From Psilocybe azurescens (Eukaryota > Basidiomycota > Agaricomycetes > Agaricales > Agrocybaceae), in the NCBI GenBank assembly GCA_023853785.1, contig JAJIRX010000510.1, forward strand, positions 682,001 through 746,000: DNA of 64,000 bases. The letters are read 5' to 3'. The notes under the pieces were generated by a model, which was not told where the DNA came from, searched no databases, and worked only from the letters and a program-made list of their open reading frames with translations. Both the position numbers and the translations under genes were made by a program. Positions 27 to 20,710 of this stretch are shown piece after piece; position 1 is the first letter of the stretch; every line of letters begins with the position of its first letter.

Positions 27-770
27 TTGAAGAAGAGGCCGGCGCCCGTCTCGAAGCTCTCCAATGCTTGGCGACCGGCTCAAGAGCCACCCATTGCATC
101 GACATCCGCAGCAGCCGCTCCTCCCACCACCACTTGTCGGACCCATCCGGCTATCCAAAGAATGGAGGCATCTAATTCCAGTGCTCGTCGACCGGCTCCG
201 TCGACATCCGCAGTCGAGGGGGATGCAAGCGGGGGCCGCTCGCATCATCAAAGCAGCCTCGGCCAGGTCATCAAAGGTCAGGGAGTGGACTGAAGGAGAG
301 GTTGCCTGTAGGTCGTGCATTAGAGCACAAATACCATGCCTAGTCATGGTTGACAAGGACAACAGCGCCCATGCTTGTATGGAGTGCAACGCTAAAAGAA
401 GAAGTGCCCGTTAGCAGTGGCGAAGTCCCCCATTCTAGGTTTTGGGACAACAATCAACTACGAGATGGCAGATGATCTGTCAGGGGAGGCGTTTAATCCC
501 AATACTCGAGCAGCAAGGCGGATCCTGGAAGATATGGAGAGGAAGTGGGCAATGCCCGAGGATTTCGGAGGAATCCTCATGAGCATTGTCTCTAGCCTTC
601 GAGTGGTCAGGGACGACAGCAAGCACCTCATGTCGGAATTTCAGAAGTTGAAGGAAACTGTCAACCGGCTGGCATCCGCCCAAAACAACAACGACAGGCT
701 GGTCGACGACGTGCAAGGTGCGACCGACGTTGAGGACACCCTTCAGCAACTGCATGCAAAACGCATCTGA
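27..770 (+). pseudogene. Zn-cluster protein, copy A (frameshifted, 5' end outside window)
   Basis: A Ser/Ala/Pro-rich leader (27-290) runs into a cysteine cluster (ACRSC at about 319, then IPC, HACMEC and KKKC near 395) and then an acidic, helical tail (417-770) that looks able to form a coiled coil. The spacing is roughly C-x2-C-x6-C-x12-C-x2-C-x6-C. Coding potential passes from frame 3 to frame 1 near 285 and back near 393, so the copy carries two shifts or consensus errors. The interrupted minus-strand gene at 8,072-16,682 has the same cysteine spacing, the same lead-in (W-x-x-G-x-V/D-x-C) and a similar helical tail, so the two are paralogs. DNA or RNA binding is a guess from the cysteines. 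No known family name is claimed. Confidence 0.55.
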
Positions 771-1800
771 AGGTGAGTCGAAGCGGCATCAACAATGGCG
801 CCTCGCGGATCAGACAATGACAGTTCCAGCGGTCATGATGGGGACATGCCCAAAGTCCGTGAAAGTTATATCGCTTCCTGTAAGCGTCTTCTATGCAGGC
901 CTGACAGCACAGATGGAATTACCAATGAAGATGGAGCAGGGGCCGCCTTGAAACGCAAGGCAACCAGCGACTGTTGCTGGACATAGCCTATCCAAGAAAC
1001 AAAAATGTAGGAATGGCGTGTACTTTTTCTGCACCCTCTCGGCAACATATTTGTTATATATTTTGTCTTGTCATTCCGTCGTGCTGGGCTTTCTTGTTGG
1101 ACATCGCCCTGTCTTTTTTTTTTTGGGACTTTTACATTTAGTTTTTGTTTGCATTTAATACATCAGGGCCCGTAGTAGTCTGTTGTTCATTTGGCCCCCA
1201 CATTAAAATTATACTATATACAGAATTATAATGCAGTTTTGGTCACTTAATTCATGAAAACAGTATGATTCAGCTTCTTAGACAAAGAAAGTGGCAGGTT
1301 GAAGGCGGTGGCCACATACTTTTTGTAAATATAACCGGCCACCGCCTTTGCACTGGTCTTTGACTGGTGGGCAGTTGTGCCCACTACGCAAGTGGGATAA
1401 TTGGCACGGCAAATTTTCATGGGGGAAAATGGGAAAGCCGTTGCAAAAAAAACGATTCTTGTGCAGCTTTGTGTAAAAAAGCCTGGCATGCACGTACAAA
1501 CTGACATCTCAATCGGAATGACTGATTGATGACTCTGGCGGCCGTCATCAACAAAATAGGTGCCCAGTGATTTCACACGGCTTCCATTTTGGTATAAAAC
1601 TATCTACAATGCTTCTTTCCAGAGCCCGGATGCCAAGAGATCAATAAGCTGGAAGGGATAACCAAGGGATATCAAAATAATTGTCTTTATTTGTGGTCAC
1701 CTTCCACTGGGAACTTTTTTTCTTCTTGTCGATCATCCTACATCCTGATAACGTTAATTCTCTACCTACTCCTACTAAATCAAAAGCTCTGTTTATTATT
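771..1800. other. No clear gene; weak tail fragment at 795-986
   Basis: A 63-codon open frame at 795-986 (Ser/Asp-rich, then Lys/Arg) may be the last part of the Zn-cluster copy to its left. The rest is AT-rich with homopolymers and has no recognisable coding, RNA or terminal-repeat signal. Confidence 0.4.
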
Positions 1801-3022
1801 ATGGACTCTGAAAACCTCAATACATCAAACTCAAAGATATCCCATTCCGCCGAACCTGTCAATCCAACGAAATGCTCAATTACTGCGCACCATGAAGATA
1901 TGGAGGGCATAAACTTTTCCAAGGTCCATATACCTCATCCTGACAACATGGTGGATCCTGGTAGGGACTTGGTTTCTGTCACAGCCGGCCCTATTGTCGG
2001 TTTAATGAAATTGTCTATGTATGTTCGTGAATGTCCTTTGTGAAAATGAAATCTGAAAAATTGTTTGCAGTCTTATACACTCTCGTCATGTCAACATTGA
2101 GAAAGTCCTTGCCTGCCCTGGCTTTTCGGTAGTGCAGTTTAGCGAATTTACTGACGCAAAGAATCATTATGAAGAGCAATGGATGTTGGGGAAGGTTCGG
2201 CTAGTCACGATAAACGGCGACATTATTTCTTCAAAGAATCAAAGTAAATGCCCAGCCATCACGTCGGTGACCATCCCAACACAAAGTACTGTGCAAGCAG
2301 CTGCCCGGGTTCCGACTATTGCATCCCCAGCAACTGATACGGAGGCCGGTACTGTTCAGGGAACTGCTTGCACTGCAGCCATCGCGATCACGCCATATTC
2401 TTATTCTGCCCCAGCAAGCGATAAAGCTCTTGCCGTGTACCTGGAAGTTGCTCCTACAAATTATGTGGCGCTACAAGTTGAGCCTGCCACCGATACAGAA
2501 ATTGCCACTGTGTTGCCATCCAGTGTAGGAACAAGTGAAGGTGTGGGTACCCTCTCCAGGACACACATGTCTTTGGCGGCCGCTATGGAATTGCCAACTA
2601 TTGTTGGTCTCAAGTGCACACCTCTCCCTTCAGAATCCACCCTGGACACCGAAAATTTGCAACCTCACGTTAGTGATGAAAGCCCTTACAGTGTGATTGC
2701 TATGGATGCAGCCACGGCCGACTCTCAGCAATCCGATTCTGTTACATTGGGTGCGGCCTTCATGAAGTCACCGGGCGGGCCTAACGCTGCAAAGCAGTTC
2801 CTTCTTTGTGCAGGAGTCTTCACTTCCAGATCTTGCTCCAATTGCCAACAACGTGCCATTGAAAAAAGACCGGTGGTCAACATCCAAGCAGAACAGGATC
2901 GTTGGGATTATGCAAGAGCTTATTATGACAAAGTATATAAACCCAATCATGTTTTCCTCCCGGTCGACCTGAAAGCGGCTGCCAAGGAAGGATATGTCGC
3001 CCCCTCAGTCCCCCTACTGTAA
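1801..3022 (+). CDS. Hypothetical protein with RNase H1 N-terminal (viroplasmin)-like domain
   Basis: Start ATG at 1801. One intron at 2019-2070 (52 nt, GTATGT..TTGCAG) splits an Ile codon and keeps the frame, giving about 390 residues. Residues of the form VTAGPIVGLM, then about 25 residues later FSVVQFSEFTDAKNHYEEQW and GKVRLV, fit the pattern of the small fold found at the N terminus of eukaryotic RNase H1 and in caulimovirus viroplasmin (VGxxxGxY ... F..F.t..eA...). The rest is Thr/Ala/Pro-rich and disordered. A cluster with CAGVF..RSCSNCQQR lies near the C terminus. No RNase H catalytic domain follows. Genes of this type are abundant near transposons in mushrooms; the role is unknown. 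Domain assignment is by eye only. Confidence 0.5.
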
Positions 3023-3541
3023 TCCTCCGTCCATGGAAATATGCGGTGGATCTCCGTGTCGAGGCCTTCTTGGAATACAAGAAAGCTCGGGAAAGGGCTC
3101 TTGAAACCGAAGTTCGACGGACGCCCGGAGAATTCTAAACCTTCAGCTGCGGCGACAAGAATTAAGAAGTCGGATAGGGTCAAAGATAAAAGAAATTTCT
3201 AATTGAACCGGAGTCCGACAAGGAGTTGTTGGACACCCCACCGCCAAACCCTAATGGTTTTACAAATCTATTCAAATACGAAGACATATTCGATGAGGCA
3301 ACTATGAAAATGGCCATCGAGGGAGAAGTACAGAGACAAGGTTGTAAACGATGAAAGTGAAGAGTACATCAGCAACTTGACTCCCCCGGCGTCCATAGTG
3401 GATTCTGATTACTTCATCAGAAACTCGAAAAGAAAACCAAAAGCGGACCTCTGCATCAACGATAATATGCCTCAGTGCTGAACTACGTGAGTGTGTGATT
3501 TGATATATAAATCGAAAACCAAAACACAAACCAGAGAGGAA
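3023..3541 (+). other. Derelict coding tail after the preceding gene
   Basis: Past the stop at 3020-3022 another frame reads on with RPWKYAV..., a Lys/Glu-rich helix and stops at about 3,137. It could be the original C-terminal part of the 1,801-3,022 gene after a shift. The remainder (3,140-3,541) holds only short broken frames. Confidence 0.3.
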
Positions 3542-5201
3542 TGGTCTAGACTAGATAAGACGACTCTCTCCCTGTTGAGTTAAAGTGAGGGCTGGCTTTG
3601 CCACTAGGTTGTGTAGATGTATGTGGTCTGAGGAGGGCAGGGACATATGAAGGAGGAGGAATGGATGAGGGGATATAAAATGCCCTTGAGTATTTACTGG
3701 GAGGAAGCAACCCGACTTGATTAGGGTAGAACGGTGTGAATGAGGTGTGATGACTGTGGAGGGGCCAAATGACTAGATAAATCGTAGGAATTGATACGGG
3801 GGGCAGGAGTGAGAATGTAGTCTTGATCCTAGTGCGCTTCAATCGAGTCTACAGTGTCTGCAAAGCTAGAAGTAAAGCCTGCTGATAGAGTAATGACTTG
3901 AGCGGCCTGGAGTGATAGATGATGAAGGATTGTGCGATGTTCTTGAACCAAAAAAATCAAACAGAGCGGTAGAGTGAATGAGGGATGACTAGGGCGATGG
4001 ATGAAGATGACAACAAGACCAAGATTGCTGAATAAAAATATTCTGGAGTGACTGAAGCGATGGGGAGTTGAGGATCTTGATGTAGAGGAAGAATGAAGGG
4101 TCTGGAGGATGGTAGGATCGAAATGAACTGGACAAAATTCTCTGTGATGAGAGAGCGAGAGTGGTTGGATAGGCTGGTCTAGCCACTGATGAACGTCTTG
4201 AATAACTGGAGTGATTGTTGAATTTCGTGCTGAATACTGATAGAGATTGATTGAATGCGTGCTTGGAGTGCTGGACTGAGTACTTGATAACTTGAAATCT
4301 TTGCTGTGAAGAAAGTTGGGGCTTGTAACTTCCTTGCATTCCAAGCGATACTAATACATGGTTTATATACCAGAGAACATAGAAAAATATTTAAAAGAGA
4401 TCAAGCGTCCAAACTATACCAATCATTCTGTGGAACGACACCCAGTAGTCCCATCTATCAACTACATACAATAGATTGAAAGCTGACGGAGTTTAGGAGT
4501 GAAAAATAGAAGGATGAGTAAGTAAGTAACATAGGATGAGTAAGAAGTATAAGCAGGATTATGAAAAGCGAAGTGAGATGAGTAAGAAAGAAGCGAAGCT
4601 GAGTAAGTACAATAAGCAAGAATGACAAAAGGAAGGAAGGATTAATCATATGAAAGTGTCAGACAATAGAAAAGGAGCCAAAATAGCGAACAAGTACCAT
4701 GCTAATGAATAGAACCAGTCTATTCATGGCACAGCTCAGTCATCCATTACCAAGACTGCTGAGTGAGACAAAGATTTGCTGCATATGTGGAATCCAGTTA
4801 AGGACCAAATAGTTGTAGATGATCAAATGCTGATGACGATGGTGATATATGATGCTGTGCAGTGCTGTGCATACTAGGATGGATAGAAATGATGTCCAAG
4901 AATAATCTGCGCATAGCCTTGAGGTTCGAAATAGATAGACGATTGGATCATTGATAGGGAATGTAACTGATCAAATGGTTGAAGTGGAGATTGAAAGTTG
5001 GAATGGAGCTTGAAGTGGACTGTGAATGGGCTTTGACATTGAATATTGAGGGATGTGCTTCAGATAAAAATGCGAAATAATAACCCTGGCTTCTGCATGC
5101 AATGGGGAGTCAAGACAGATGCTCTAAGCTTATAGATAAATCTCATATCCAATCAAAATTGGTGTATGACACTGGTGCAGATAGAGGTGGGGCATTCCAC
5201 A
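3542..5201 (-). repeat. Non-coding LTR-like block
   Basis: About 1.66 kb with strong strand asymmetry (purine-rich on plus) and no protein-like frame. Read on the minus strand it begins TGTGGAATGCCCCACC at 5,201, has a TATATAA-like box near 4,370 and reaches GGATCAAGACTACA at about 3,816. TG...ACA ends and this layout resemble long Ty3/Gypsy LTRs of basidiomycetes. I found no matching target duplication, and no gag-pol frame adjoins it, so a solo or truncated LTR is an inference. The 171-codon minus frame at 3,829-4,344 is not convincing as a gene. Confidence 0.35.
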
Positions 5202-5220
5202 ACTGCAATAGATCCTCAGC

Positions 5221-7985
5221 ATGATCCAAGGATGCCCTGTGCAGCACCTGGACTGTCAATCTGGAAGAATGAAGAATCAGCTATCCTTCAGCGCAAATGT
5301 TGCCGGCTATCGAGCAGCACCTCGTAAAGAGAAGTCACAATGGGTGGCAAAGAATGTTGTTCCTTTAATAAAGACGGTGTTCAGTGAAACCTACAAAAAA
5401 AAATACACGGAGAAGGATTCAACGCTTCTTAAGCAGTGGGACAAGAAGAAATTAGTGAGTAGGTGCTGAGATAGGTTCATAAAAGTCGTACTAACATTGT
5501 TCAGCAAATTTATACCTGGTTCAGGAACAATGCGGCGACTGAAAGAACAATGCAAATTCCAGGATTTAATATCAAAACTAGTTATGGCTCACTAATATCG
5601 TCCGTTAAAAAAGATGAAATTGAGATAGAGGCAAAAGGCTGGCGTAGGAGCATATGGAAGAACAAGCGGCGGCCGGCATTGAGCCTATGTCTCAATCGGA
5701 AGCCGGTAGTAGCAAAAATTGGATTCGATTTTATTCTGCTGCCAAATCAATAGTCAGAAAAAGAATGAACAAGGAAGAAAAGGAAGAGCTAATAACGAAG
5801 CTGGAAGAATGGGAAAAGGAGGCATCCCCGAGATGTTCAAGCACAGTGTTAGAAATAGACAATAATGCACAAATCAGTAGCTATACTGATGAGTAACAAT
5901 AGAGTCAAATCTCAAATGCGCAACAATGACAAGTATGAGTGAAAATAGTAAATTGCTTCTGTAGACTCCAAATCTTGTTCTAGTGTCTTTGTTTCCTCAG
6001 ACATAGTAGGAATACTGGTCTTTTACATGGCTAAGTGTCTAAAAATGGCGAGGCGTGACTATAGGTGTCCACAATATTGCGTCAAAACACCAAACCTATA
6101 ATTACGTGACAAATTATATATCACCGGAACCGTCTCAACGAGGGGATTCCGGATCAGTGATCAGAATTTGAATAACTTTACTCTACAAAAAGTTATTAAC
6201 AGAACAGTGTGCAAAAACACTGAAAAGAGCGAATTCTAACTAAGTGTCCATTTGTACAAGTCCAAATATCAAGTGTAGAACATTAGAAACAAAGTGTTTA
6301 ATCACAAAAACTAACACACAGTCAGTATAGTTGCCATTCTGATCAGCCATTGTCTATTGTTCTAATCCTTCCCCATCAATCAGGAATGCATATAAATATG
6401 GGAGCAAGATCATACGGGCAATGGACAAGGCATGGTTTAATTCTATGAGAATGAGAACAGTGGCATTTGAATGTCATTATGATAAAGATGGGAACATGCA
6501 CTTTTCAATGTTTGTCCTGCAACTGACTTGCTTTCCGAGTACAATAACAAGACAAGATTTACAGATATGACACACTGCGTCTAAATAACGATCCATCAGG
6601 AATGTTATCATTTGACATTGATGAGCCAGAGGCATACAGCTTGGCAATGGAGGGTTTTGTTCGGTGGTCCAAGAAGATTGCACGACTTGAAAATCCTAAT
6701 CAGGGTCCGGATGCGGAGCCTGAAGTGATCAAAACAAGAACATTTACGGTCGCCGATCTCACATATACGGCCGCCAAAATGCCACAGATTCCGCCCACCT
6801 ATATTGAACAAAAACGGAACCGAAACCCATGTTATTCAGAGAGATATAGTAAGAACATTGTGGAATAAGCATCTTGGTATGTCAAAAAATGGCACTGCCT
6901 TGACAATTGCTCACAATTTTTAGAGCTTGGTAAAGGGCCAAAAGGCAGAGTCCCCTACAAGCTCATGGTACAAAATGGTTGGAAGTTATACATTGATAAA
7001 AAATACTTTCCGGCTGGGAATAGTCTTGCAGGAGCCCGGAAAGTATAGCGCAGAAGAAGTACAGAAAATACTCTATCTGTGGAGGAGGCGTCAGGACAAG
7101 TTTGTTATACCCTTCAAATTTACAGCATTTCCAGGAAAGGGCCACATAACGGCAGCCGCCTATCCTGCTGGACTTTTCGATGGATATTCCGAACCGGCCA
7201 CCGACGATCCTGACAATGTCACACCACCCTTCTCAAGTTTGATTCCCATGGAGCCTGCCAGTGAATCAGACGAAGAAGGATACATCCACAAGGTTAGGGA
7301 GAGATCTCCATCGTGTGAAATGTCTGAAGTAGAGGGCACCGACGGTCATCTCATACAACAAAACCAAAACAATGTTGGCGGCCACCTCACAGACTCTATT
7401 GGTCATAATCAACCAGCACAAACCAGTGTTGTGCAATCGTCCACTGTGCAATTGTATGTCCACCATGTTAGGGAGCGATCTCCATCGTCCGAATCGTCTG
7501 AAGTAGAGGGCGCCGATGATCATCTCATACAACAAAACCAAAACAATGTTGGCGGCCACCTCACAGACCCTGTTTGTTATGATCAACCAACACAAACCAC
7601 TGTTGTGCAATCTTCCACTATGCAATTGGAAAGCAACTTCCAACAAGAAACTAATCAAGCAGTCGGTCGCCGAAGTCATTGCTTGTCTCAAATCGCTCAT
7701 GAAGATGGAATCCTGCAAGAATCACGAATACAGTCACTGCCATCAATTCAACAATTGGATAAGCATCTTCATCCTTCTACCTCTTCAACCAGCAAAGAAA
7801 AAGTTTCAAAAAACTTAGGGACCACAGTAAGAAGGTCTAGCCGAATTGCTATTCCTGTAGCCGCGGCCGCCGCTGTGAACAAGTCAAAAACGACGTCGGG
7901 GCCGTCAAAGGCCAAAGTAAAGTCATCAATAAGCACAGCTATTAATAAAGGCAGAACCGCATCTGGAAAGGCGAGGCATAAATAG
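5221..7985 (+). pseudogene. Uncharacterised Agaricomycete repeat-associated gene, decayed
   Basis: Exon 1 starts at 5221. An intron at 5,455-5,504 (50 nt, GTGAGT, CTAAC, TTCAG) joins KKKL to QIYTWFRNN. After a shift near 5,645 comes a helical piece with NWIRFYSAAK and LEEWEKEASP (5,660-5,896). A later piece reads WFNSMRMRTVAFECHYDKDGN (about 6,430-6,500). An intron at about 6,877-6,923 leads to a piece starting GKGPKGRVPYKL and, after another shift near 7,015, EPGKYSAEEVQKILYLWRRR. The C-terminal half (7,250-7,985) is disordered, holds two copies of a roughly 195-nt unit (RERSPS..EVEG...LIQQNQNNVGGHL) and ends in Lys/Arg/Ser-rich sequence. Proteins with this order of blocks recur in mushroom genomes. 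No enzyme motif is seen. At least two shifts suggest a pseudogene. The stop lies 87 bp from the convergent end of the Zn-cluster gene. Confidence 0.5.
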
Positions 7986-8071
7986 TAATCTCTTCCCTTC
8001 CCTTCAATTTCCATGAAGTAGCAGTACCATTAGTCCGTACCTAAATAGCAATAAATAAATTGATATAAAAA

Positions 8072-9545
8072 CTATACTCTCTTCTTCTTTGTCTCATGAT
8101 CCTCATTTCCCTCCAATTCCATTTTGCATTTCAAAGCCATTGTAGTGGCATACCCCACCTCCTCATATTCCCCATGCCAATCATTGTCTTCTTTCCCCAC
8201 TGCTCCGGCCTCCGGGGTTGGAGAACAAGGATATGGCACCAGTGTGTTTGGCACCAGTTCTGTGTAACGGAAACGTGGTATATAAGTTGCTGGCTCCAAA
8301 GTACCTTCTGGAATCCAACTATTGCAGTTTGGTTTTTCAACTGGCTGAGTTGTAAATCCTCCTGCGTCATCGGCAACCGTGCTGGTTGAAGAATCTGTTG
8401 AAAACAATTTTGGCTGATCCAGTAGCTCTGTTGTTACTACCCCCTGATATGTTACTTGTTGAATCTTGATTTAGTCCAGGCAAAGAGTTTGCAGCGCCCT
8501 GGTTTGCTGTGGGCCGCAATGACTGCGGCATCTGGATCGATGTTGAATGTGTCGCCGGCAGCCTTGGTGAGGGGTGTGTTGTCGTCGGCAGTTGGGACAG
8601 TAGGAAGTGTCAGTTCTGTAGTACCTGATTGCTTGGGGACATCCTGGTTTGCTGGGGCCTCTGATTCATCGAACTTCCCTCCATAGTTGCCAGATTTTGG
8701 GGGAGGAGCATCACCTTTGGCCTCCGCTACGGACTCCGCAATGTCGTTTACGATGGGCGCTGGTGACCAACTTTGGACTGATGAAACCTGATGACTGGAT
8801 CATTCTGAACGATGCCCCCTTGTTTATCATTCCCATCCACCCCTTCATCTCTTGCAGATCCTTCTCCAATACTTGTTGTTTGTTTTGAATATCTTGGACA
8901 CCCTGCAAGATATCCCCCAGAAGGTCATCCGCGTTGGAGGGCTCGTGATGTTGGTGGACCTTCTGCAAGATCTCGGCAAGAAGGTCCCCCAAGTCGTTAC
9001 AACCAGGATGTTCTCCCAGTTGTCTGAGCATACCATCACTCAGAGGTGTCTTGAAGTGGAGCCTGATGTTTGCTGTGTTGGCCAAAGGGCATCGTTTTTG
9101 CCATTCTTGCAAGCCCAACATGCGTGTCCCTCCCATGCTGTCTCATCGGCGAGGACCAAGCACCTTCGACTTGCTTTCAGGCACGAATCGCAAGAAACAT
9201 CGCCATCAACCCACCCTTTTACTTCAGCATTATGGTCAGACTTAAGGGAGGAATCTGGTGGGGCTGAACTGCCAGCCTTAACGGCCTCCCCCGGGCGGCC
9301 GCTTTTTTGTGTGCTTTCTTTGGAGCAGCCGCTGCTTTATCTTCCTGACCAGGTTTCGCAGGCTTTGGAGTTATCCTGTCAACATTTTTTGTAGATTCCT
9401 CTGTAATAATTTGTTAAAATATGTAACAAGCAATATGAGATCAACTAACTCTTTATTTTAGGCGTCACCTCGTTCTGGGTTTCGTGGGTTTCATGGGTTT
9501 CCTGGTGTCGCCTTTTTGTCTCACCTCCATCGTCATCGCTGGAAA
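8072..9545 (-). pseudogene. Zn-cluster protein, copy B, C-terminal part (split by KDZ insertion)
   Basis: This is the downstream part of a minus-strand gene whose start is at 16,682. From high to low coordinate it reads VIVSSDDDGGETKRR (ends about 9,463), an intron at about 9,403-9,455, a Lys/Ala/Pro-rich stretch, the cluster GDVSCDSC...RRC...HACWAC (about 9,120-9,210), a Leu/Gln-rich coiled-coil segment (8,790-9,060) and a Pro/Ser-rich C terminus ending ETKKKRV at 8,072. It changes frame near 9,285, 9,090 and 8,500. The cysteine block matches the copy at 27-770. A nuclear DNA-associated role is plausible from the basic and acidic tracts but not shown. Confidence 0.55.
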
Positions 9546-9553
9546 CTATAACC
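9546..9553. repeat. Target-site duplication (left), CTATAACC
   Basis: The 8-mer CTATAACC abuts the left TIR of the KDZ element and is repeated exactly at 16,119-16,126. An 8-bp duplication is what Zisupton/KDZ-type elements make. Confidence 0.85.
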
Positions 9554-9577
9554 GAGGTCTTTACCCTCACCCATATA
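9554..9577 (+). repeat. KDZ left terminal inverted repeat
   Basis: 24 nt beginning GAGGTCTTTACC. It pairs with 16,095-16,118 read on the minus strand with five mismatches (positions 2, 4, 5, 13 and 14). Confidence 0.8.
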
Positions 9578-9580
9578 TTC

Positions 9581-9920
9581 GGTGGAGTCCACCAACTCCG
9601 GCATGGAGTTGGTGGACTCCACATGGAGTTTGGTGATCTTTTTTGGCAGGTATCCCAGCCATTTAGGGGTGGAGGCTCCACATGGAGTCCAGCCGGAGTC
9701 GACTCATCCTCCATGTGGACCAATGTGGAGGATGTGGAATTCCATGTGGACTCCATGTGGAACTTCATTTGGAGTTCATGTGGAGTCCACATGGAGTTCA
9801 ACATGCTCCACATGGATTCTATTTGGATTTAACCTATGAATAATGTATATCAACATGACTACACAATTTTAGGACCAGATTCAAATGGACTCCATGTGGA
9901 GGAAGGTCCCCGGATTTTAT
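9581..9920. repeat. Left subterminal array of TGGAGTCCA/TGGACTCCA motifs
   Basis: A dozen or more near-palindromic 9-mers (TGGAGTCCA, TGGACTCCA, TGGAGTTCA and one-base variants). 9,583-9,599 and 9,605-9,621 are inverse copies and could form a hairpin next to the TIR. Such subterminal arrays are usual transposase-binding sites in DNA transposons; that use here is an inference. Confidence 0.75.
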
Positions 9921-11339
9921 ATATATTTTATTTTAATTTTAAACAATTTATTAAAACCAAGAAAAAACTACAATACACGGGAATTGAACTCTTGACATCA
10001 CAGCAAGAAATATATACGTGTTTTACCACTGCACTATATCAGCTTTATTAAATTAATAAAACAACGTGTCCATATACCTGCGTCCAAGTCACATGCAGCA
10101 ACATGTGACCACGTTCAGCATAATTGGCACGCAAGCCACGCGCAAATATTTGTTTGTGGCGCGCGGCCAACATTTGATTGTGGCACGGACAGCCACATTG
10201 CCACTTTCCCCCCACTTCCCCCACTGCCCCCTCCCTCACTGCCACTCGCCACCGTCGACTATTGCATCCACGATCGTGGACGATCGTGCATGATATGGCC
10301 CCCAGACCCGGTCTGGGGCCCCTATATCCGCATCCGGACCCATCACCACCGCTCCACCCTCATCCGCTGGCCCCCCAAACGTGGTCGCCAACATCTCGAA
10401 TCGGACGCCGCACAGGTGCCCAGCAAGCGTACATGCTGCAGGGCTCGAGGCACAAACAATGACAACAACGATACCAACAATCCCCACGCCGAATATGATG
10501 ACTACGAAGACCGTTTGACTGCCAAACCAGGGAGTAGGGTGTCCAAGGCGACATGGCTGGGCAAGAAAGGAGGTCCCCGCAGGTGCGTATACCCCTCCTT
10601 TTTCATTTTTATTCGCCTCACTGACGTTTTCAACAGGAAACCTGCCCTTGAAAAGGCCAGGAAGGAAGCCGGGGTCGATATACCCCGCTGACAAAGCCCT
10701 TACCTAGTACATCCCCACCCCCTACCCCTTCCTATTCATATTCAAAATTTTATTTCTCTTTTTTTTTACTGTTTTTTTTTTTGTAGTACAGAATGTGTGC
10801 TCGAGACGAGCAGCACCACGGTAGCACCCCCACCACACCGCTCGGGCGGCGTATCAGCTGCCGCCCCTGTCCCTGCTACACCCGTCCCTGCCCTCGTCTC
10901 CGCCGCCAGCTCATCCAGGCGATGCAAGGGCGCTGACGCGTACGTGGAGCCCGTAGATGGCAACCATGGCAACAACCGAGACAAGGACGGTGACTACGAC
11001 AACGACGAGGACGCAGACCGCAACCACGACAAAGGACCACGACAAAGATGAAGACCACGACAAAGACGAAGACCACGACAAGCACGGGCACAGCCAGCGA
11101 CAAGCACAAGCACAGCCACGACAAGCACAAGCACGGCCACAAGCACGGCCATGGCAACGACGACAGCGAAGGCAACAACATGGCCAACAACAGCCATGCC
11201 GAGGGACGACGACGGCCACAACAACAACAACGACTGCAACGGCGACCACAACGGCGAAGATGACGGGAGTGAGGCCAGGGGAGAGGGTGGGCGTGACGCT
11301 GCCGCCGCCACCAAACCTGCCCAGGAGATTGCATGAGCG
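9921..11339 (+). other. KDZ element leader with low-complexity frames
   Basis: No certain gene. An open frame at 10,290-10,691 (SKATWLGKKGG..., ending GVDIPR) with a possible intron near 10,583-10,636 could be a 5' coding part. After it, 10,950-11,270 is a (GAC/CAC/AAC)n-type tract that gives His/Asp/Lys-rich or Thr-rich protein in different frames, so frame choice is not informative there. A T-rich tract at 10,748-10,784 could be part of an intron acceptor. Confidence 0.4.
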
Positions 11340-13101
11340 GTGCACCTTGTCTGTGCTAGCACCAGTGCACGCCGTGACCATGACAGGACCCCAACCCGCT
11401 CTGTGCATGATCCCACCACCCCTCGTGGCCGTGATTTCAACAAGGCCAGCACCCGCCTTGATAAAGGTAAGACGAGCACTGCTCGTCATCATGCCTATGA
11501 TGGCTCTAGTACCTCTCGTGCACCTGTGCATAACATATCCCACAGCCGGGACAGAGGCAATTCCACCTCTCGTTTTCGTGCTCTTTCCTCTGAACGTCGT
11601 TGCTATCAGGAAGGTGAAATGTCTACCACCCATTCTGATGAGCATGTCTCTCGAGGCCGAACCTCATCTCGCAGCACCTGTGATGATGGTATATTTATTT
11701 ATTTTTATTTATTCGTAGTCATTAATATATTGAATAGATATTGTTATAGCCAGTCCACCTAAACATATCCCTGCTCAGGGTTCATCTCGCTCATCAGGTG
11801 GAATAGCCAGAGGTAGAGCATTGGGTGGCTATTTTAATATTGCAGATGCTCAAAAGGTTTGGGGTGATATCAATGCTCACGAAACCTCGGCCATTGGACC
11901 AAAGGAAAAGGGCAAGATCTTTGTCTATCAGTCTTCATCAGATCCAAATACTGTCGACATTTCATCAACTAAATCTTCATTTGCTGTCCATGTGGCTGAT
12001 ACTGTGCAGTATACAACTATTCAAGATATTGTCAGAAGGATTGCACAAGACTATTCTCCAATTCAAAGTAAGTTAGATAACTTCAACTATCACTGAACTT
12101 ATTCAAATGAATTGATAATAGAACCTACTGTTCAATTGTTCTTTCTTGATGATGTCGACTGGATTGCATTTGGCCGATATGAGGCAATTACTCACCAAGA
12201 TTTGGTGTCTGAAGATAATATTGACTGGTTGAAGAAAGATGGTCTAAAAGTTGTTCACATTTTGGCTGTAAGCTTTTATTATATATATATATATATATAA
12301 TTAACTTGAATTTTTTTTCTATTTGTAGTCAACATATGATCTAAGTCCTGGTTTGATATCAGGATTACCAGGTCGTATTGGATCTATTTCTAGCCGAATC
12401 CTCTTTACCATCTGGCTCTTACTCTGGTATTCGCTCTGAGTCTCCTCTCTGTCACAACACTATTACAACAGTGTCAGCACCTTTGACTATTCAAGAAGAT
12501 TCTGAAGAAGTACCATGGCTTACTTCATCAGGCATTCCAACTCCTAAATACCAAAAGCGCTTAGCTGAAGAATTAGGCATTGATTCATACTATATGAATT
12601 CGTTCTGGTAAAGGTATACAATTTTACTGGGGTTGTTACAAAGAGTGCAAAGCAGCAATGAAGAGAGCTAAAGAAATCAACAATAGTGGAAACTGGCCTA
12701 TTGACATTCCTAGCTATTGTGAGGAGCACATTATTGAAGTTTTTATTGGAAATTCTGCTTGGCATCAAAATTATGGTACACTTTTTACAAGTGTCAAGGA
12801 TTATTATCCTGATTTGGTGGACTGGTTGGAAAATTCAGAAACACCTAAAGAAGAAAACAAAATAGTTTGGGGAGTGGAGAAGGCAGAGTACACTATAGCC
12901 GACTTGAAAGAGTTTTTAGAGAATCAAGGGACTTTGCGTAAGTCCAAGGCCAAGATCAGCCGACATTCTCTTTCACCGACTTCACCTTTAATTGGAAGAA
13001 ACAAGTCAAAAATAATCAGGAACAGCATAGGAGGTAGGCAATATTGCAATATCTTTTTTTTCTGTTTTTCTTGTTTGAAAACTTTCTTTTTCTTTCTTTA
13101 A
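11340..13101 (+). pseudogene. KDZ-element accessory protein (unknown function), frameshifted
   Basis: Spliced frame: a basic, Ser/Arg/His-rich exon to 11,688; intron 11,689-11,749 (61 nt); exon 11,750-12,067 with GGYFNIADAQKVWGDI; intron 12,068-12,121 (54 nt); exon 12,122-12,267 (TVQLFFLDDVDWIAFGRYEAI); intron 12,268-12,328 (61 nt); then exon 12,329 onward. Exon phases agree at all three introns. One-base shifts follow near 12,375 and 12,604. The C-terminal block contains FYWGCYKECKAAMKRAKEI, GNWPIDIPSY, an aromatic NYGTLF segment and a Lys-rich tail. I know no domain name for it. It lies directly upstream of, and co-oriented with, the transposase, so a role in transposition, such as recognising the termini, is a reasonable guess. 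Confidence 0.5.
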
Positions 13102-13159
13102 AAAAAAATTTAAAATTTAAAAATTTAAAAAACTAATATGTATTTTGTGTACTTGTAGT

Positions 13160-15592
13160 CTGGTTTTGACATTGGTCTCTCTGGCTTCCAAACCTGTAAC
13201 ATCATCTAATAGACATTTTGATAACTTTGTCTATGTTTTACTCTATCTTGCAACTGTCTTGTTTTGCAATGCTGCTCGACTACCAGCATATCTGAAAGTA
13301 CTTGGGTCACTAGTGTTTCTTCCTTTAGTGTGTGCTACTCCTCAAACACAGCCATTTCCAGATATACCTTTTATGTCTTTAGTGAATTTATTCAAAAGAC
13401 ATTTAACTCTGAAGTGTCTCTGGCAACAGTATTGCTGGTATTATTTTCAATGACAGAAAATCCTGAACTACTCAGCTTACATGCTCGACAAAAAATCCTG
13501 TCTTTCAAGGAGAACGTAAAGTTGTATCTTCAGGATGGATAAGATCTCTATCTCGTGGCATTATGCATAAATTACAAGACACCCAAAAACTCTTTTCCTC
13601 TATGGAGAATATTCTAAAACTCATCGAGTTGTAAAGTTGGCCTCCAAACTTGATGCACTTGCAATTTTGCTTAAACTTACTCCATATGATAAAAATAACA
13701 AATTCAAGGGCAAGCTGCTTCCTGTATCATATGACAGCATTCAAGGTGTCCTAACAATTTGTCCAAATTCTGTTGTATGTGTAAATGTAGCCTGCAAACC
13801 TCGAGGTTTATTGCAAACCAGTTTACCACGTGATATTCCATTAGTCACTCTATACAAAGAAAATATCATCTATCAAGATACTCCAGTTTTGATGGGAAAA
13901 TGCCTTAATTGCAACACTTTCTACTATGCTGATCATGAGCGTTTTCAAGATCAACAAGGCCAATGGAATAAGTGTTATTTAAATTCAGCAAGGTTTCTAA
14001 AAGTTGGTCAAGTAACATGGGTTGATAGAAAATTTTCACATTCAGTTCTGAGTGGGATGTATAACTTTCATGGATCAGCAGCTGCTTATACCCAATTCTG
14101 GAATGACTGCAACTTAGTCACAGGATCAGACTTACAAGTTGCTAGACGTCTGATCTGGCAAACATTTATCCAAGAGTCTATCAGGTCAATTGCAAGCAGT
14201 AAAAATGTTAACTTGGAGTTGCCAGACAAACTGAACGTTAAAGAAGTTGCAATTCAAGCATTTTCTAAACTAGGAGATGCAGGAAAGTTAGAACCTGCTA
14301 AGAATCATTCTTGTTCACAATGTACTCAGCCATACAGAGCTACTGCAGATTTTATGGCAAATGATGATCCTGCAGCAGTTCAAGGTGCTGATGAAAATAC
14401 TACAGTACCTGTTTTAATTGGAGAAAATGCAGCAATATCTGCACAGAACACTATTGAACAACGAGCTGCTGCACGAACAAGAGCAAATAACTTGCATTCT
14501 AATGTAAACTCAAATAATGATGAAATGGATATTGACTATGATGATTGCACAATGATAGTACTAGATGGTCTTGTTATGGGTCCTATAGTAAGTTAGACTA
14601 TTATTTTTTATTTTTAGAAATGACTAAAGCTTGTTTAAGCACTGTGCATTTGAAGGCTGTACTCAAGATGTAAAGAATGCAAGAGGTGGAGCTTTTTGTG
14701 AAAACCATGAAAGACAATATGGGAACAAATGCCGTGTTCGTATTTGTCAAGCAATAAAAGTTGAAAACACACAAGCATGTCAACAGCATCAGCCAGAATG
14801 GAAGAAATATAAACTTGATCATAACAGGTCAACTTTGGCTGGGGTTAGACGAATGCTTCAAAGACCTGATGAAGCTAACCCTTGGCAACCTGGTCTTCGC
14901 AGAACTATTCAGGCTCATGATGATGATGGAGACATTGAAATCCCAAGAGATAATTACATTGGGCCTGGTCGATGGTATTGTGTTGAAACAATGACTGCAC
15001 CATGTGGAGTTGTGATTGCATGGACTAAATTTGATAAGTCTGAATCACCAACTAAGATTCTGAACTGGTTGCAATCTGTTTATCCAACTGAAGAATCTCG
15101 GCCATCCTATATTTGTATTGATAAAGGTTGCCAAGTCCTTCGAACAAGTATTGTAAACAGAACTTGGGAATCTTGGCAAAAACTAGTCGATTTATTGTTG
15201 ATTCATACCATTATATTAACCATCGAACAAGTGATTATCTATGCCGTAAATGGTGTAATCCAGCTCCATTAAATGGTTCTGCTCCAAATCTTGTAGTTCT
15301 AGCAAAGACTAAAGATGGAACAGAATATCTTCAGCGAGCATTTAATACACAAGCATGTGAACAATTAAATTCATGGTTAGGTGGCTTTGATTCAATTCTA
15401 AAGCGCATGAAATCTGGGAATTTTAATTGGTTTTTACATTCAATGCTGTTCTATCACACTCAACATGTCATTCAAAAGCAGAAACAAAGAGAAAAGCTTC
15501 ATCAAATTGATGATACTGAAGATGATGAAGGAGAAGAAAAGAATGAAAATTATATTGAAAGACACTGGGATATGGAAGATGATGAGGCATAA
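13160..15592 (+). pseudogene. KDZ transposase with CxC5 and CxC6 cysteine clusters
   Basis: From N to C terminus: a hydrophobic/helical start (13,160-13,560, shifted); a CxC5-type zone (13,571-14,587) with VCVNVACKPRG, GKCLNCNTFYY and CSQC; an intron at 14,588-14,639 (52 nt, phase 0); a CxC6-type zone (from 14,640) with HCAFEGC, FCENHE, CRVRIC and CQQHQ; then the RNase H-like core with CGVVIAWTKF, ICIDKGCQVLR, VDSYHYINHR, LCRKWCNP and ACEQLNSWLGGF, and an acidic C terminus ending at 15,592. The Asp residues in IDKGC and VDSYH and the Glu in ACEQLN are candidate catalytic residues (inference). One-base shifts at about 13,597 and 15,183 break the frame. KDZ (Kyakuja-Dileera-Zisupton) elements are expanded in Agaricomycetes, where they are linked with TET/JBP genes. 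Confidence 0.85.
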
Positions 15593-15819
15593 GTGTGTAG
15601 AAAAAGAAGTGTATTCTAGTGTACCACTATAAATTATTTGATTTAATTTGAAGACTTTAAGAGCTTCATATAGACTTTTACAAAGAATCTATTTACAAGC
15701 TTGTAAGTCTACTACTCACTTAGATAATGAATTTGAAATAAATATACAAAAGCTCTATCTAGATTCTATCTAGACCTTGACTATACTAATAAAAAATAAA
15801 AATATTAAGACCTATGTGG
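15593..15819. other. 3' flank of KDZ transposase, non-coding
   Basis: AT-rich sequence between the transposase stop and the right subterminal array. It probably holds the transcript end. No motif is certain. Confidence 0.4.
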
Positions 15820-16094
15820 AGTCTACACAGAGTCCATGTGGAGTCCATGAAGAGTCCATATGGAGTCCATTTCTTTTACTTCCATCTAAAGTGGAATCAT
15901 TTGGAGTCCAGATGGAGTCCACCTGGACTCCACCTGGCCTCAAGTGGAATTGTATGGAGTCTAAGTGGACTCCATCTGGACTCCATCTGGACTCCACTTA
16001 TCAAAGATGACTTTTTGAACATTTATATATGTTCCAGGTGGACTCCATGTGGAGTCCACCACTTTTGTATGGAGTTGGTGGACTCCATATGGAG
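15820..16094. repeat. Right subterminal array of TGGAGTCCA/TGGACTCCA motifs
   Basis: Counterpart of the left array, with about 17 matches or near-matches to TGGA(G/C)TCCA. 16,071-16,087 is the perfect inverse of 9,583-9,599. Confidence 0.75.
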
Positions 16095-16118
16095 TATATG
16101 GGTGGAGGTAAAGTACAC
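16095..16118 (-). repeat. KDZ right terminal inverted repeat
   Basis: Read on the minus strand it begins GTGTACTTTACC and matches the left TIR at 19 of 24 positions. Confidence 0.8.
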
Positions 16119-16126
16119 CTATAACC
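16119..16126. repeat. Target-site duplication (right), CTATAACC
   Basis: Exact copy of 9,546-9,553. Confidence 0.85.
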
Positions 16127-16682
16127 TTGCTTTTACGTTTCCTACTGAGGCGCTGAAATTGGGCTTGGATGGTGCAGATCTCTTATTTTTGCGAATGTTG
16201 TCCTCTTCAGCGGTCGCCGTAGCGGATGCCGTTTCAGCATGAGAATTTCCAGTTGATACCTTGTTCTTCGGCTTCTGCGTGCGTTCCCTGACATGTTCCT
16301 TTGTCTTCTCCTTCTCCTTCTGGTCCTCTCTTGCTTTAAGCACGGCCTTGTGACGTTCTGCTGCCTCGGCAACTTGGATTGCCATTGGCCTGAGTAACCA
16401 TCCCCTGCCTTTGTTTGCCCTGCCTCCCATCAGTATATCGTGAACCTCCTTCCACAAAGTTTTGGGTTGGTTAGGAAGGTTTTGGCTTTGAGAGTCCAGA
16501 GCCACCTACTATTATAACATTTGAGCTAATGAATACAACACAAAATTAAAATTTTCGCTCACCAATTCACTGTAGAGTTCCACAAGATTAGCTTTATACT
16601 TGATTGGGTCCCGTGCTAATCGAATGATTCATTTGTCTGCCTGATTGGTGCGAGCAATATGGGAAGTCAGGGCAGTAGACAT
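16127..16682 (-). pseudogene. Zn-cluster protein, copy B, N-terminal part
   Basis: ATG at 16,680-16,682 gives MSTALTSHIARTNQADK, then an in-frame TGA, then IIRLARDP...KYKANLVELYSEL. An intron at about 16,508-16,562 (GTGAGC..ATAG) joins to ALDSQSQNLPNQPKTLWKEV and a highly charged Lys/Glu/Arg-rich helix. The frame then meets the KDZ insertion at 16,126. The TGA (probably from a Trp or Arg codon) is real decay that a single-base length error cannot explain. The start is divergent from the acidic repeat gene, whose ATG is 228 bp away, so the two may share a promoter. Confidence 0.55.
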
Positions 16683-17324
16683 AATCACAAATGAGGTATT
16701 GAAAGCTAATCAAAGATTCAGCGTTTAATTAAGAGAAGACAATTTGATGGAGATGAAGAATTTTGAACTGTCTCAAAATAGCTCAAATCAGGTCACATGC
16801 CGTATTGCAACTTTTATTTGAGTCACGTCTCAGTCATCAACCACCATCATACTCTTAAGTCGGCGAGCTCATTTTTAGTGTAGGCCAATAATAGGAATTA
16901 CTATCCTGTCATGCCCAGAAAATCTAGAGGTAAGCATATAGATTCTGGGAATTTGTTTTGTATATAACAAGATCTTTGTTGTATATCGATGTTCAAGTTA
17001 ACACTATAGCATCCTCTCCAGACCTCAGCATGGAAATTGGATCTGATAGCTCAGGAGTTGACGAGGCTACCCAACGGATTTCCGACGATGACATCATTGA
17101 GATTGGTTCGGACACCGACGCTGATGAAGATCAACTTCAACAGGACAATTATAACGACATCGAAATAGGTTCAGACATTGATAGCGTGACGCAATACACT
17201 CAACAACATTGAAGTTGTATCCGACAGCGAGATTATGCAAGAGGACAGGCCGTTGGACATTGATGCTATTATCGAGATTGGGTCTGATTCGGAAGATGGA
17301 GATATTGAAATAGGGTCCAATCAC

Positions 17325-18275
17325 GATGAAGAGTTAGAAGTTGGGACTGACAGTGAGAGAGTGCGAGGTGGAAGTGCGGCCGGTATGAGTGATGAGGAAT
17401 TCAAAGTTGGGACTGACAGCGAGAGCGTGCGAGGTGGTGGTGCAGCTGTCAACATGGATGATGAAGAATTGGAGGTTGGGACCGACAGAGAGCGTCGCGA
17501 GGTGGAGGTGCAGCTGCCAGTATGGGTGATGAAGAATTGGAGGTTGGGACCAACAGCAAGAGCATGCAGGGTGGAGGTGCAGCTGTCGGGATGGGTGATG
17601 AAGAGTTAGAAGTTGGGACCGACAGCGAGAGCATGCGAGGTGGTGGTGCAGCTGTCGACATGGATGATGAAGAATTGGAGGTTGGGACTGACAGCGAGAG
17701 CGTGCAAGGTGGAGATGCGGCTGCCGGTATGGGTGATGAAGAATTGGAGGTTGGGACCGACAGCGAGAGCGTGCAAGGTGGAGGTGCAGCTGCTGGTATT
17801 GGTGATGAAAAACTTCGAAGTTGGGACCGACAGCGAGAGCATGCAAGGTGGAGGTGTGGCTGCCGGCTTGGGTGATGAAGAACTCGAGGTTGGGACCAAC
17901 AGCGAGAGCATGCAAGATGGAGATGCGGCTGCCGGTATGGGTGATGAAGAATTGAAGGTTGGGACCGACAGCAAAAGCGTGCAAGGTGGAGGTGCAGCTG
18001 CTGGTATTGGTGATGAAAAACTTCGAAGTTGGGACCGACAGCGAGAGTGTGCGAGGTGGTGGTGCAGCTGTCGGCATGGGTGATGAAGAATTGGAGGTTG
18101 GGACCGACAGCGAGAGCGTCTGCGAGGTGCAGCTGACGGCTTAGGCGATGAAGAGTTTGAGATTGGGACTGATAGTGAGAGCGTGCAAGGAGGTGCGGCT
18201 GCCGGCTTTCATAACGAAGAATTCAAAGTTGGGACCGACAGCGAGAGTGTGCAAGGCGGAGGTGCGGCTGCTGAA
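17325..18275 (+). repeat. 69-nt coding minisatellite (about 13 units)
   Basis: The 23-residue unit reads GDEELEVGTDSES(V/M)QGGGAAAG with small changes. Two units, beginning near 17,795 and 18,001, share the same one-base-longer variant (GATGAAAAACTTCGAAG). They are about 207 nt, or three units, apart, so a block of three units was duplicated after that change arose. Confidence 0.85.
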
Positions 18276-18440
18276 AGATCTATTTCCAGTGAGCCAGGAG
18301 ATATCGAAATTGGATCCGACGTTGAAGACAGGCATTTTGACATTGGGACAGACGAGCATGTAGGAGGAGGTAAGATCACCAATGACCTCATCGAAGTAGG
18401 ATCTAATGACAAGGCAGTGGCTGCTGTGACTGTCTTCACA

Positions 18441-18863
18441 GGGCCACTGACCCTAAATACATTGATCTGCGGGCCAGACAGCAGCGACGATGGGGACTGG
18501 CAACCTTCCAACAGGTCTTCCAGCTCATTCGACGAGGATATCAACATTTGTTTAGATCCCAGCATTGAGATCCAAATGAATGAGCCGCTGACCCTGAATA
18601 CATTGATCTGTGGGCCAGACAGCAGTGACGATGGAGACTGGCAACCTTCAAACAGGTCTTCCAGCTCACTCGACGAGGATATCAACATTTGTTTAGATCC
18701 CAACATTGAGATCCAAATGGATGGGCCACTGACCCTGAATACCTTGATCTGTGGGCCAGACAGCATCGAAGATAGGAACTGGCAACCTTCAAACAGCTCT
18801 TCTAGTGAATCCGACGAGGATATCGACATTTGTTTAGGTACCGATGAGCTGGATGGCTTAGTG
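18441..18863 (+). repeat. 141-nt coding repeat, three units
   Basis: Units begin at 18,441, 18,582 and 18,723, exactly 141 nt apart, and encode 47 residues each: PLTLNTLICGPDS, then DWQPSN(R/S)SSSS, then DEDI(N/D)ICL. The third unit has diverged most. Confidence 0.85.
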
Positions 18864-20710
18864 GAAATTGGGTCGGATGCCAGCATCGAGATAGAGTCGG
18901 ATAATATGCTTGAAAATGGTAATTCTTTATTGAATAGGCATTGAAAATATGTCAATAATGCAATCTTTTCAGCCAGTGAACCCCTGCCCTGTCCTGGCCC
19001 GGCCTCCGACACACTCAATGACATCGTTGAAATCGGATCGGACATCAGCTCAGAGATGCAGTTAGATACAAACAAAAACGGTAATACTCTTGAAGAATCT
19101 CTCCCAGTATATTCTTAATATTATCCTCCCAGCCAGTAAACATTCGTCTCATGTTGGGCCCTCCACGGCCTCCGACACTTATACAACAGCCGCCGGAACT
19201 CATACAGATATCCTTGAGATTGGATCAGAGCCAGCATAGAGATTGGGTCGGATACGAGTGAATCAGGCAGACACGTCCCGGCCTCCAGCGCTCATGCAGA
19301 CATCGTAGAAATAGAGTCAGACATCAGTCTAGAAGTTGGGACGGACACCAAAATAGGTATTTATCCTTGTACTGGTCTTGTGCACAGAAAATAATACTGC
19401 CTATCCAGCTAGTAAAAAACTGCCCTCGCGTTAGGAAGGCCGCTGCTACTCTGACATCGCACCTTTCAAATGCCTCCACGTCAAAATTTCTGTTGGAGCC
19501 ATTAACAGGAGATCATAGCGATGATGATGTTGAGTATGTTGAAAGCATCCATGTTGATCAACGCCCGGGATACAAGCAACGAAAGGATACGAGGCCTCCG
19601 CCACCCCATCGCAAAAACAAGTGCTCCCAGCCGCCCGCCTCTCGTCGTGGCAAGGCAACTGAAAGGTACGTTCCAGGTCAAAACATGTATGAAGGTGAAG
19701 TGGAGTTGTTTACATGGAATATTAATTGTAGTACTAGTGGAGATAACGAGACAGACCCCGTTCCTCCTGCAAGGACATCCCGTGGTGGTGTGTACCTTAA
19801 TGTTAGTACGACAAGATAAATCACATGGTTTTGATTAGAGCTTGAATGGCCACCGCTTGAACATAAAAATCCCAGCTTCCATCAAATCAAAAATGACTCT
19901 AACGGTAGAATCCACTCTTCATTAAGTCTAATTAAGCTGATTTACTACCAGATGGAATTCAATTTCAAAATGATTACAGTATATTTACTAAGGCTCTAAC
20001 ACCTGAATCCATTGGTATGTTGTCTCAACCAATAACTATGATTAATCCGACTCTCACTTCATAACTGCTTTAGAGCCTCGGATAAATGCTGTGGCCGACA
20101 TGGTTGAAGACACTATAGATAAAGACAGAGCATATGTCAGGAGCACATTATCGAAAACCTTCAGGCCTGATGTGGAAGCCCATTTTGTGCATACAAGGCA
20201 CATCAATATCAGGCAAGACGGCCGCCGCCACCAAGGTCAAGCCGATACCCGGCTCCCGAATCTTGATCAAATAGGGATGCCTTCTGCTGTACAAGAGCCA
20301 TATGTCTTTGTATGTGAAAGATTCAACTTTGTGGTAAAGACATTTACTCAAGATATTCTTTAGCATTACACCAGAGAACAACTTCAAGACATACATGAAA
20401 ACGTGAGGGGAGGCCTCCCTTATGTAGACACTGCCTATGTGTTACAAAACGCGCGGTATAATCAATTGCAAATGGAAACGGCACAGGTAGAGATTATGCA
20501 GAGGGCATTGGAAGAAGTTACAAAGGCGGCAGATATGCTCACACCTTGGCTTTAAATAATTACATTTCAGTTGGTATAACTTGAATACGAGCAGTATCCG
20601 AATACACGAAGTGTTAAACTGCAGCGGCCGATGTTGGCCAAAATGTGATACAGGTCATGTGACTCGTCTGCCTAATTGATCAAGTTGAACTTTGCTTCTT
20701 AATTTAAACC

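Follow-up and report, generated by a model that had tools for sequence, protein, structure and literature searches.

A 64,000-nucleotide stretch of the Psilocybe azurescens genome (contig JAJIRX010000510.1, positions 682,001 to 746,000; hereafter the window, with positions counted from its first letter) contains a cut-and-paste DNA transposon with terminal inverted repeats (TIRs), the ends, target-site duplication (TSD), empty sites and genomic copies of which can all be seen. The element occupies 9554-16118 (6,565 bp, + strand) and is flanked on both sides by CTATAACC. We consider it highly probable that it is a frame-disabled transposon of a large CxC5/CxC6 group that inserted into a multicopy repeat and that its own CxC5/CxC6 protein is the transposase; a companion gene and a tRNA-like RNA polymerase III (Pol III) unit probably have roles of their own. 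Its boundaries are given by the following features.

9546-9553, no strand: left TSD CTATAACC, read from the window sequence and present as a single copy at empty siblings
9554-16118, + strand: the transposon, delimited by ends common to the genomic copies and by empty sites
9554-9580, + strand: 5' TIR GAGGTCTTTACCCTCACCCATATATTC, matching the 3' end at 21 of 27 positions
16092-16118, - strand: 3' TIR, matching the 5' end at 21 of 27 positions
16119-16126, no strand: right TSD CTATAACC, read from the window sequence and present as a single copy at empty siblings

The element starts with GAGGTCTTTACCCTCACCC, and its opposite end, when reversed, reads GTGTACTTTACCTCCACCC; inside these imperfect TIRs lies a perfect 17-bp inverted repeat (9583-9599 and 16071-16087). 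An initial annotation of this DNA had already proposed these boundaries, both sets of repeats and the 8-bp TSD, and all are confirmed. When the ends were searched against the 70.4-Mb assembly, the 5' end gave 299 candidates and the 3' end 306, of which 40 were scored in each case. Forty loci were extracted and, together with the window, yielded 36 rows in which both ends were recognised. Exact 8/8 bp duplications flank 24 of these, each different, where 0.0005 exact matches would be expected by chance in 36 pairs; the genome search suggested in the initial annotation therefore returned what it had predicted, several copies with the same end bases and differing duplications. Two other rows become exact when one of their ends is moved by a single base, two match at 7 of 8 positions, and eight have no duplication (L012 twice, L017 at a contig end, L021, L037, L040 twice and L042, two rows being one nested locus). 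L012, L021, L037, L040 and L042, with recognised ends and no TSD, are perhaps recombined or nested. Five more 5' ends have no 3' end, and 8 of the 40 loci have no paired row. Among the 24 exact duplications the last base is C in 14 and the first is G in 10, so that the duplications lean mildly towards a palindrome (combined P 1.7e-4, with an assumed base rate of 25%).

The right flank has five further genomic copies at 98-99% identity, all five of which lack the element and carry CTATAACC once. The corresponding span is 5,343-5,387 bp in three siblings, as against 5,378 bp for the window minus the element and one TSD. Because the empty siblings hold CTATAACC once and the spans agree with the element-free window, the insertion is directly proven; these empty sites lie in sibling repeat copies of the same genome rather than in the related strains where they had been expected. 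The TIRs, a TSD of fixed length and the empty sites by which a cut-and-paste transposon of this type is recognised are thus all present. The element had been described as caught inside a gene, which is correct as to the insertion; the interrupted minus-strand gene is itself part of a multicopy repeat, at least 5.4 kb long, most siblings of which are 97-99% identical, so that the element is nested inside another multicopy sequence. An in-frame junction had also been offered as proof of the boundaries. This argument is weak, because the right-hand 128-aa frame ends at the junction, the frame that is open across it amounts to only 54 aa, and the T run just right of the site varies in length among siblings. 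With frames that differ in this way, we rejected the junction of the window copy as reading-frame proof.

The features of the transposase gene are as follows.

13303-15592, + strand: transposase gene, with frame changes near 13491, 13588 and 15180-15200
13748-14110, + strand: CxC5 domain (PF18718, E 9.1e-26)
14564-14566, + strand: first candidate catalytic Asp, in strand MIVLDGLVMGP, from the predicted fold and the alignment
14637-14807, + strand: CxC6 domain (PF18721, E 1.9e-10), between the first and second strands of the predicted fold
15120-15122, + strand: second candidate catalytic Asp, in YICID (74 of 76 aligned relatives; one Glu, one gap)
15200-15202, + strand: further near-invariant Asp, in FIVDSYHY (75 of 76 aligned relatives, one gap)
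15359-15361, + strand: candidate catalytic Glu, in FNTQACEQLN (75 of 76 aligned relatives, one gap)

The CxC5/CxC6 gene was correctly named from the start: both clusters share one gene with a conserved YICID...FIVDSYHY...CEQLN domain, as is characteristic of the CxC5/CxC6 group, and third-position bias is seen in four of the five 150-base steps of 13650-14399. Frame changes within the CxC5 part are also found in L018, L046 and L057, so none of these three copies, nor the window, has an intact transposase, and the description of the element as complete holds for its ends and not for its genes. The C-terminal domain is conserved and has no name in Pfam. Structure prediction gives it the fold of retroviral integrases (RNase H/DDE), the three acidic residues coming from an alignment of 76 relatives, across which they are conserved and in which they are putatively catalytic; the catalytic domain looks like an RNase H/DDE domain. 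As in the integrase cores of PFV, ASV and HIV, the fold is predicted to be of the RNase H type, and in many rows of the alignment the first catalytic Asp falls in register with theirs; unlike those cores, the protein has its CxC6 cluster inserted behind the first strand, and a PDB sequence search gave no matches.

The initial annotation called this protein a KDZ transposase. Its CxC5 and CxC6 clusters are indeed described in their Pfam entries as "associated with" KDZ transposases; because the KDZ catalytic domain was not detected, the label rests on the names of the cysteine clusters. In the complete list, none of the 76 relatives matches that domain (PF18758) at E <= 0.08, and among the matches listed (150 of 170) PF18758 occurs within 5 kb of three of 89 CxC5 loci. 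One PF18758-matching fragment (C779:25378-25605) stands beside L018 (C779:25746-32276), a second full-length copy that is 88.5% identical. A profile-profile comparison of KDZ with the DDE core, for which the KDZ profile comprised just two pieces, scored 11.75. This lies inside the range given by 20 shuffles (8.1-18.5), and the comparison was discarded as a link between the two. The element thus has the 8-bp TSD and the CxC zinc cluster of the KDZ superfamily and lacks a PF18758 match; a remote relation may still exist. That it is a true KDZ element, its C-terminal domain being a diverged KDZ catalytic domain and the whole one more Zisupton/Dileera-like family, has in our estimation slightly less than an even chance. 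Passages on Zisupton and Dileera (PMC12730594) and on Cryptococcus KDZ1 (PMC12810828) report the same TSD length, and by eye the order of motifs (Asp, Phe-x-Val, His, Asp-x-x-Cys, Glu) is common to both domains; the missing PF18758 matches, the rarity of such matches near CxC5 loci and the control-level profile score speak against it. This alternative overlaps with our preferred reading, from which it differs as to kinship, the way of moving being the same.

Upstream of the transposase gene lies a second, co-oriented gene.

11750-13100, + strand: accessory gene, coding blocks, with splice sites judged by eye and third-position bias at 11850-11999 and 12600-13049
12598-13098, + strand: conserved exon of the accessory gene, identified from homologues

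This gene, noted in the initial annotation, is a real companion of the CxC5/CxC6 gene. At 37 of 42 distinct accessory places that were typed in this genome, a CxC5 exon follows downstream on the same strand, 469-903 bp away; the five places with no close CxC5 exon include C883 (contig end) and C528, where the exon is 3 kb off. The co-linearity of the two genes is thus directly observed, as is the conservation of the acidic residues in the transposase. In two relatives, L058 and L060, the gene upstream closes with a lysine-rich tail and a stop, and the CxC5/CxC6 gene comes next. The accessory exon has 48 matches in its own genome with identity down to about 21%, and the pairing is therefore probably old. 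A protein search with this exon gave a single match, in Psilocybe cyanescens (88% identity over 67%), and no Pfam family reached the cut-off with the accessory protein. A structure model of the accessory protein was not usable, as its alignment of two sequences was too shallow.

The initial annotation made no mention of the subterminal repeats, the non-autonomous copies or the tRNA-like unit, which are described next. Beside the TIRs the element carries two repeat arrays.

9583-9894, no strand: 5' subterminal repeat array, with 6 exact TGGASTCCA sites
15839-16087, no strand: 3' subterminal repeat array, with 11 exact TGGASTCCA sites

All 17 exact TGGASTCCA sites of the element are subterminal, and the other 57.4 kb of the window contain one; the repeats are candidate binding sites for the transposase. 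Non-autonomous copies fall into two groups, both found among loci L009-L048. In eight copies of 1.16-1.28 kb one and the same deletion (element positions 291 to 5532) recurs, with no perfect microhomology in the junction letters inspected. The copies of the second group, mostly 1.9-2.2 kb long, have roughly 380-460 bp in common at the 5' end and, in most cases, 200-230 bp at the 3' end; the interior between them differs from that of the full element and is ACGAC-rich in the copies looked at.

Near the 5' end there is a further unit, recognised with the A-box and B-box consensus.

9981-10036, - strand: tRNA-like Pol III promoter unit, consisting of A box TAGTGCAGTGG, 36 nt and B box GTTCAATTC
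9962-9967, - strand: T6 run behind the boxes, candidate Pol III terminator of the unit

Across 32 copies (window included) the A box is present in 26, the B box in 29 and both at the fixed spacing in 24; L037 has both boxes with the spacing one base longer, and at least five T follow the unit in 31. The window is one of these 24 copies, and its unit has the arrangement of a type 2 Pol III promoter, with A box, B box at tRNA spacing and T run. Shuffles of the element contained an A/B box pair in 7 of 300 cases and at this spacing in 1 of 300. By column conservation the B box (0.07) is far more conserved than the middle (0.55), the A box (0.38) being less clear, and the two boxes together rank 7 of 56 under block shifting. 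Six places carry the version found in the window: the window itself, L057, L026 and three others, one of which, on C883, lies 3 kb upstream of an accessory match. Divergent versions sit at the same place in L018 and in the 2-kb non-autonomous copies. Rfam covariance models and ARAGORN made no tRNA call for the unit; Rfam microRNA names that appeared at the level of E-values fall on inverted repeats and were rejected.

The unit is probably a tRNA-derived Pol III promoter that the element has kept. The alternative, a functionless relic of a captured tRNA or the head of a short interspersed element (SINE), carries appreciable weight, even if we lean against it. The unit is not recognised as a tRNA, eight 1.2-kb deletion derivatives have spread without it, and its conservation must be partly inherited, because the copies are related; yet in divergent versions, including those of the window, L018 and the 2-kb copies, both boxes, their spacing and the T run persist around a middle part that varies, and the shuffles seldom produce such a pair.

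In the mechanism that we propose, the transposase would be the CxC5/CxC6 protein, in which zinc clusters are combined with a predicted RNase H-fold DDE domain that has CxC6 inserted behind the first of its catalytic strands. Bound to the TGGASTCCA arrays beside the TIRs, this protein would cleave the element's ends and link them to target DNA at positions staggered by 8 bp. Assembly of the complex probably also involves the companion protein, and the probable contribution of the tRNA-like unit close to the 5' end is a short RNA or a boundary bound by TFIIIC. One could go further and regard CxC5/CxC6 elements as a lineage apart from classical KDZ, marked by a DDE domain split by CxC6, an obligate companion and an end-proximal, tRNA-derived Pol III unit that makes a short RNA or the element's own chromatin boundary, with 2-kb offspring that keep this unit and exchange nearly everything else; we hold this possible, if rather unlikely. 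Least probable by far is that the element is a non-autonomous passenger with the CxC5/CxC6 protein as an accessory and mobility supplied by another element (the Copia retrotransposon, as proposed for Pleurotus, or a canonical KDZ in trans): trans mobilisation is a necessity for the short derivatives found here, and passages of PMC7641404, a mushroom breeding study, report no KDZ gene near CxC5/CxC6 and propose a role for Copia, but TIRs, 8-bp TSD and empty sites are hallmarks of a cut-and-paste transposon, and conserved acidic residues and a predicted integrase-like fold are present in the CxC5/CxC6 protein itself.

The closest parallel is in Pleurotus ostreatus, where a 6,792-bp insert with a 739-aa CxC5/CxC6 open reading frame interrupts poMSH4 (PMC7641404). 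According to passages of that account it resembles the present element in interrupting a gene, in its high copy number and in having no KDZ gene nearby; it differs in that its main text uses neither the term target site duplication nor the term inverted repeat and the authors point to Copia. Nor is a companion gene named in the passages concerned, whereas the present element has defined ends, an 8-bp TSD and a DDE-like domain. With its ends proven, its 8-bp duplications and clusters that share one protein with an integrase-like domain, it suggests that the clusters are part of the mobility gene itself.

TET/JBP genes were reportedly treated together with KDZ by Iyer and colleagues in 2014. In the parts consulted of a paper on Zisupton, Dileera and Kyakuja (PMC12730594), Zisupton and Dileera have 8-bp TSDs, and some fungal families of the group carry an accessory gene, as here; that accessory is TET/JBP, the text makes no mention of CxC5, and the Kyakuja families that it describes differ in having 7-bp TSDs and CA..TG ends without TIRs. 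KDZ1-3 of Cryptococcus neoformans are, in the relevant passages, likewise DNA transposons with a zinc-chelating CxC domain and TIRs, and KDZ1 has 8-bp TSDs (PMC12810828). They differ in size (about 9-11 kb), in TIRs of 139-241 bp (241 bp in KDZ1), in their CxC1 domain and recognised KDZ core and, for KDZ2 and KDZ3, in TSDs of 4-8 bp.

As far as our searches go, proven ends for a CxC5/CxC6 element, a DDE-like domain split by CxC6, a conserved companion and a tRNA-like unit are new: judged by title and the start of the abstract, none was described earlier among the matches listed, and on the same basis none of the papers listed describes a TIR DNA transposon that contains a Pol III promoter or a tRNA unit. 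Exact terminal sequences are now available for searching other Agaricales, and the sporeless mutation of Pleurotus could then be reinterpreted as the outcome of cut-and-paste transposition. If a DNA transposon does keep a Pol III promoter in its interior, this would be a trait more familiar from SINEs.

The host repeat extends over about 7000-18950 outside the element, with siblings on C215, C547, C548, C642, C713 and others. Three tandem repeats lie in this part of the window: two copies of 174 bp in an open frame (7285-7628), about 14 copies of a 69-bp unit within open frames of acidic repeats (17325-18271), and 2.8 copies of a 141-bp unit with 90% matches (18443-18837).

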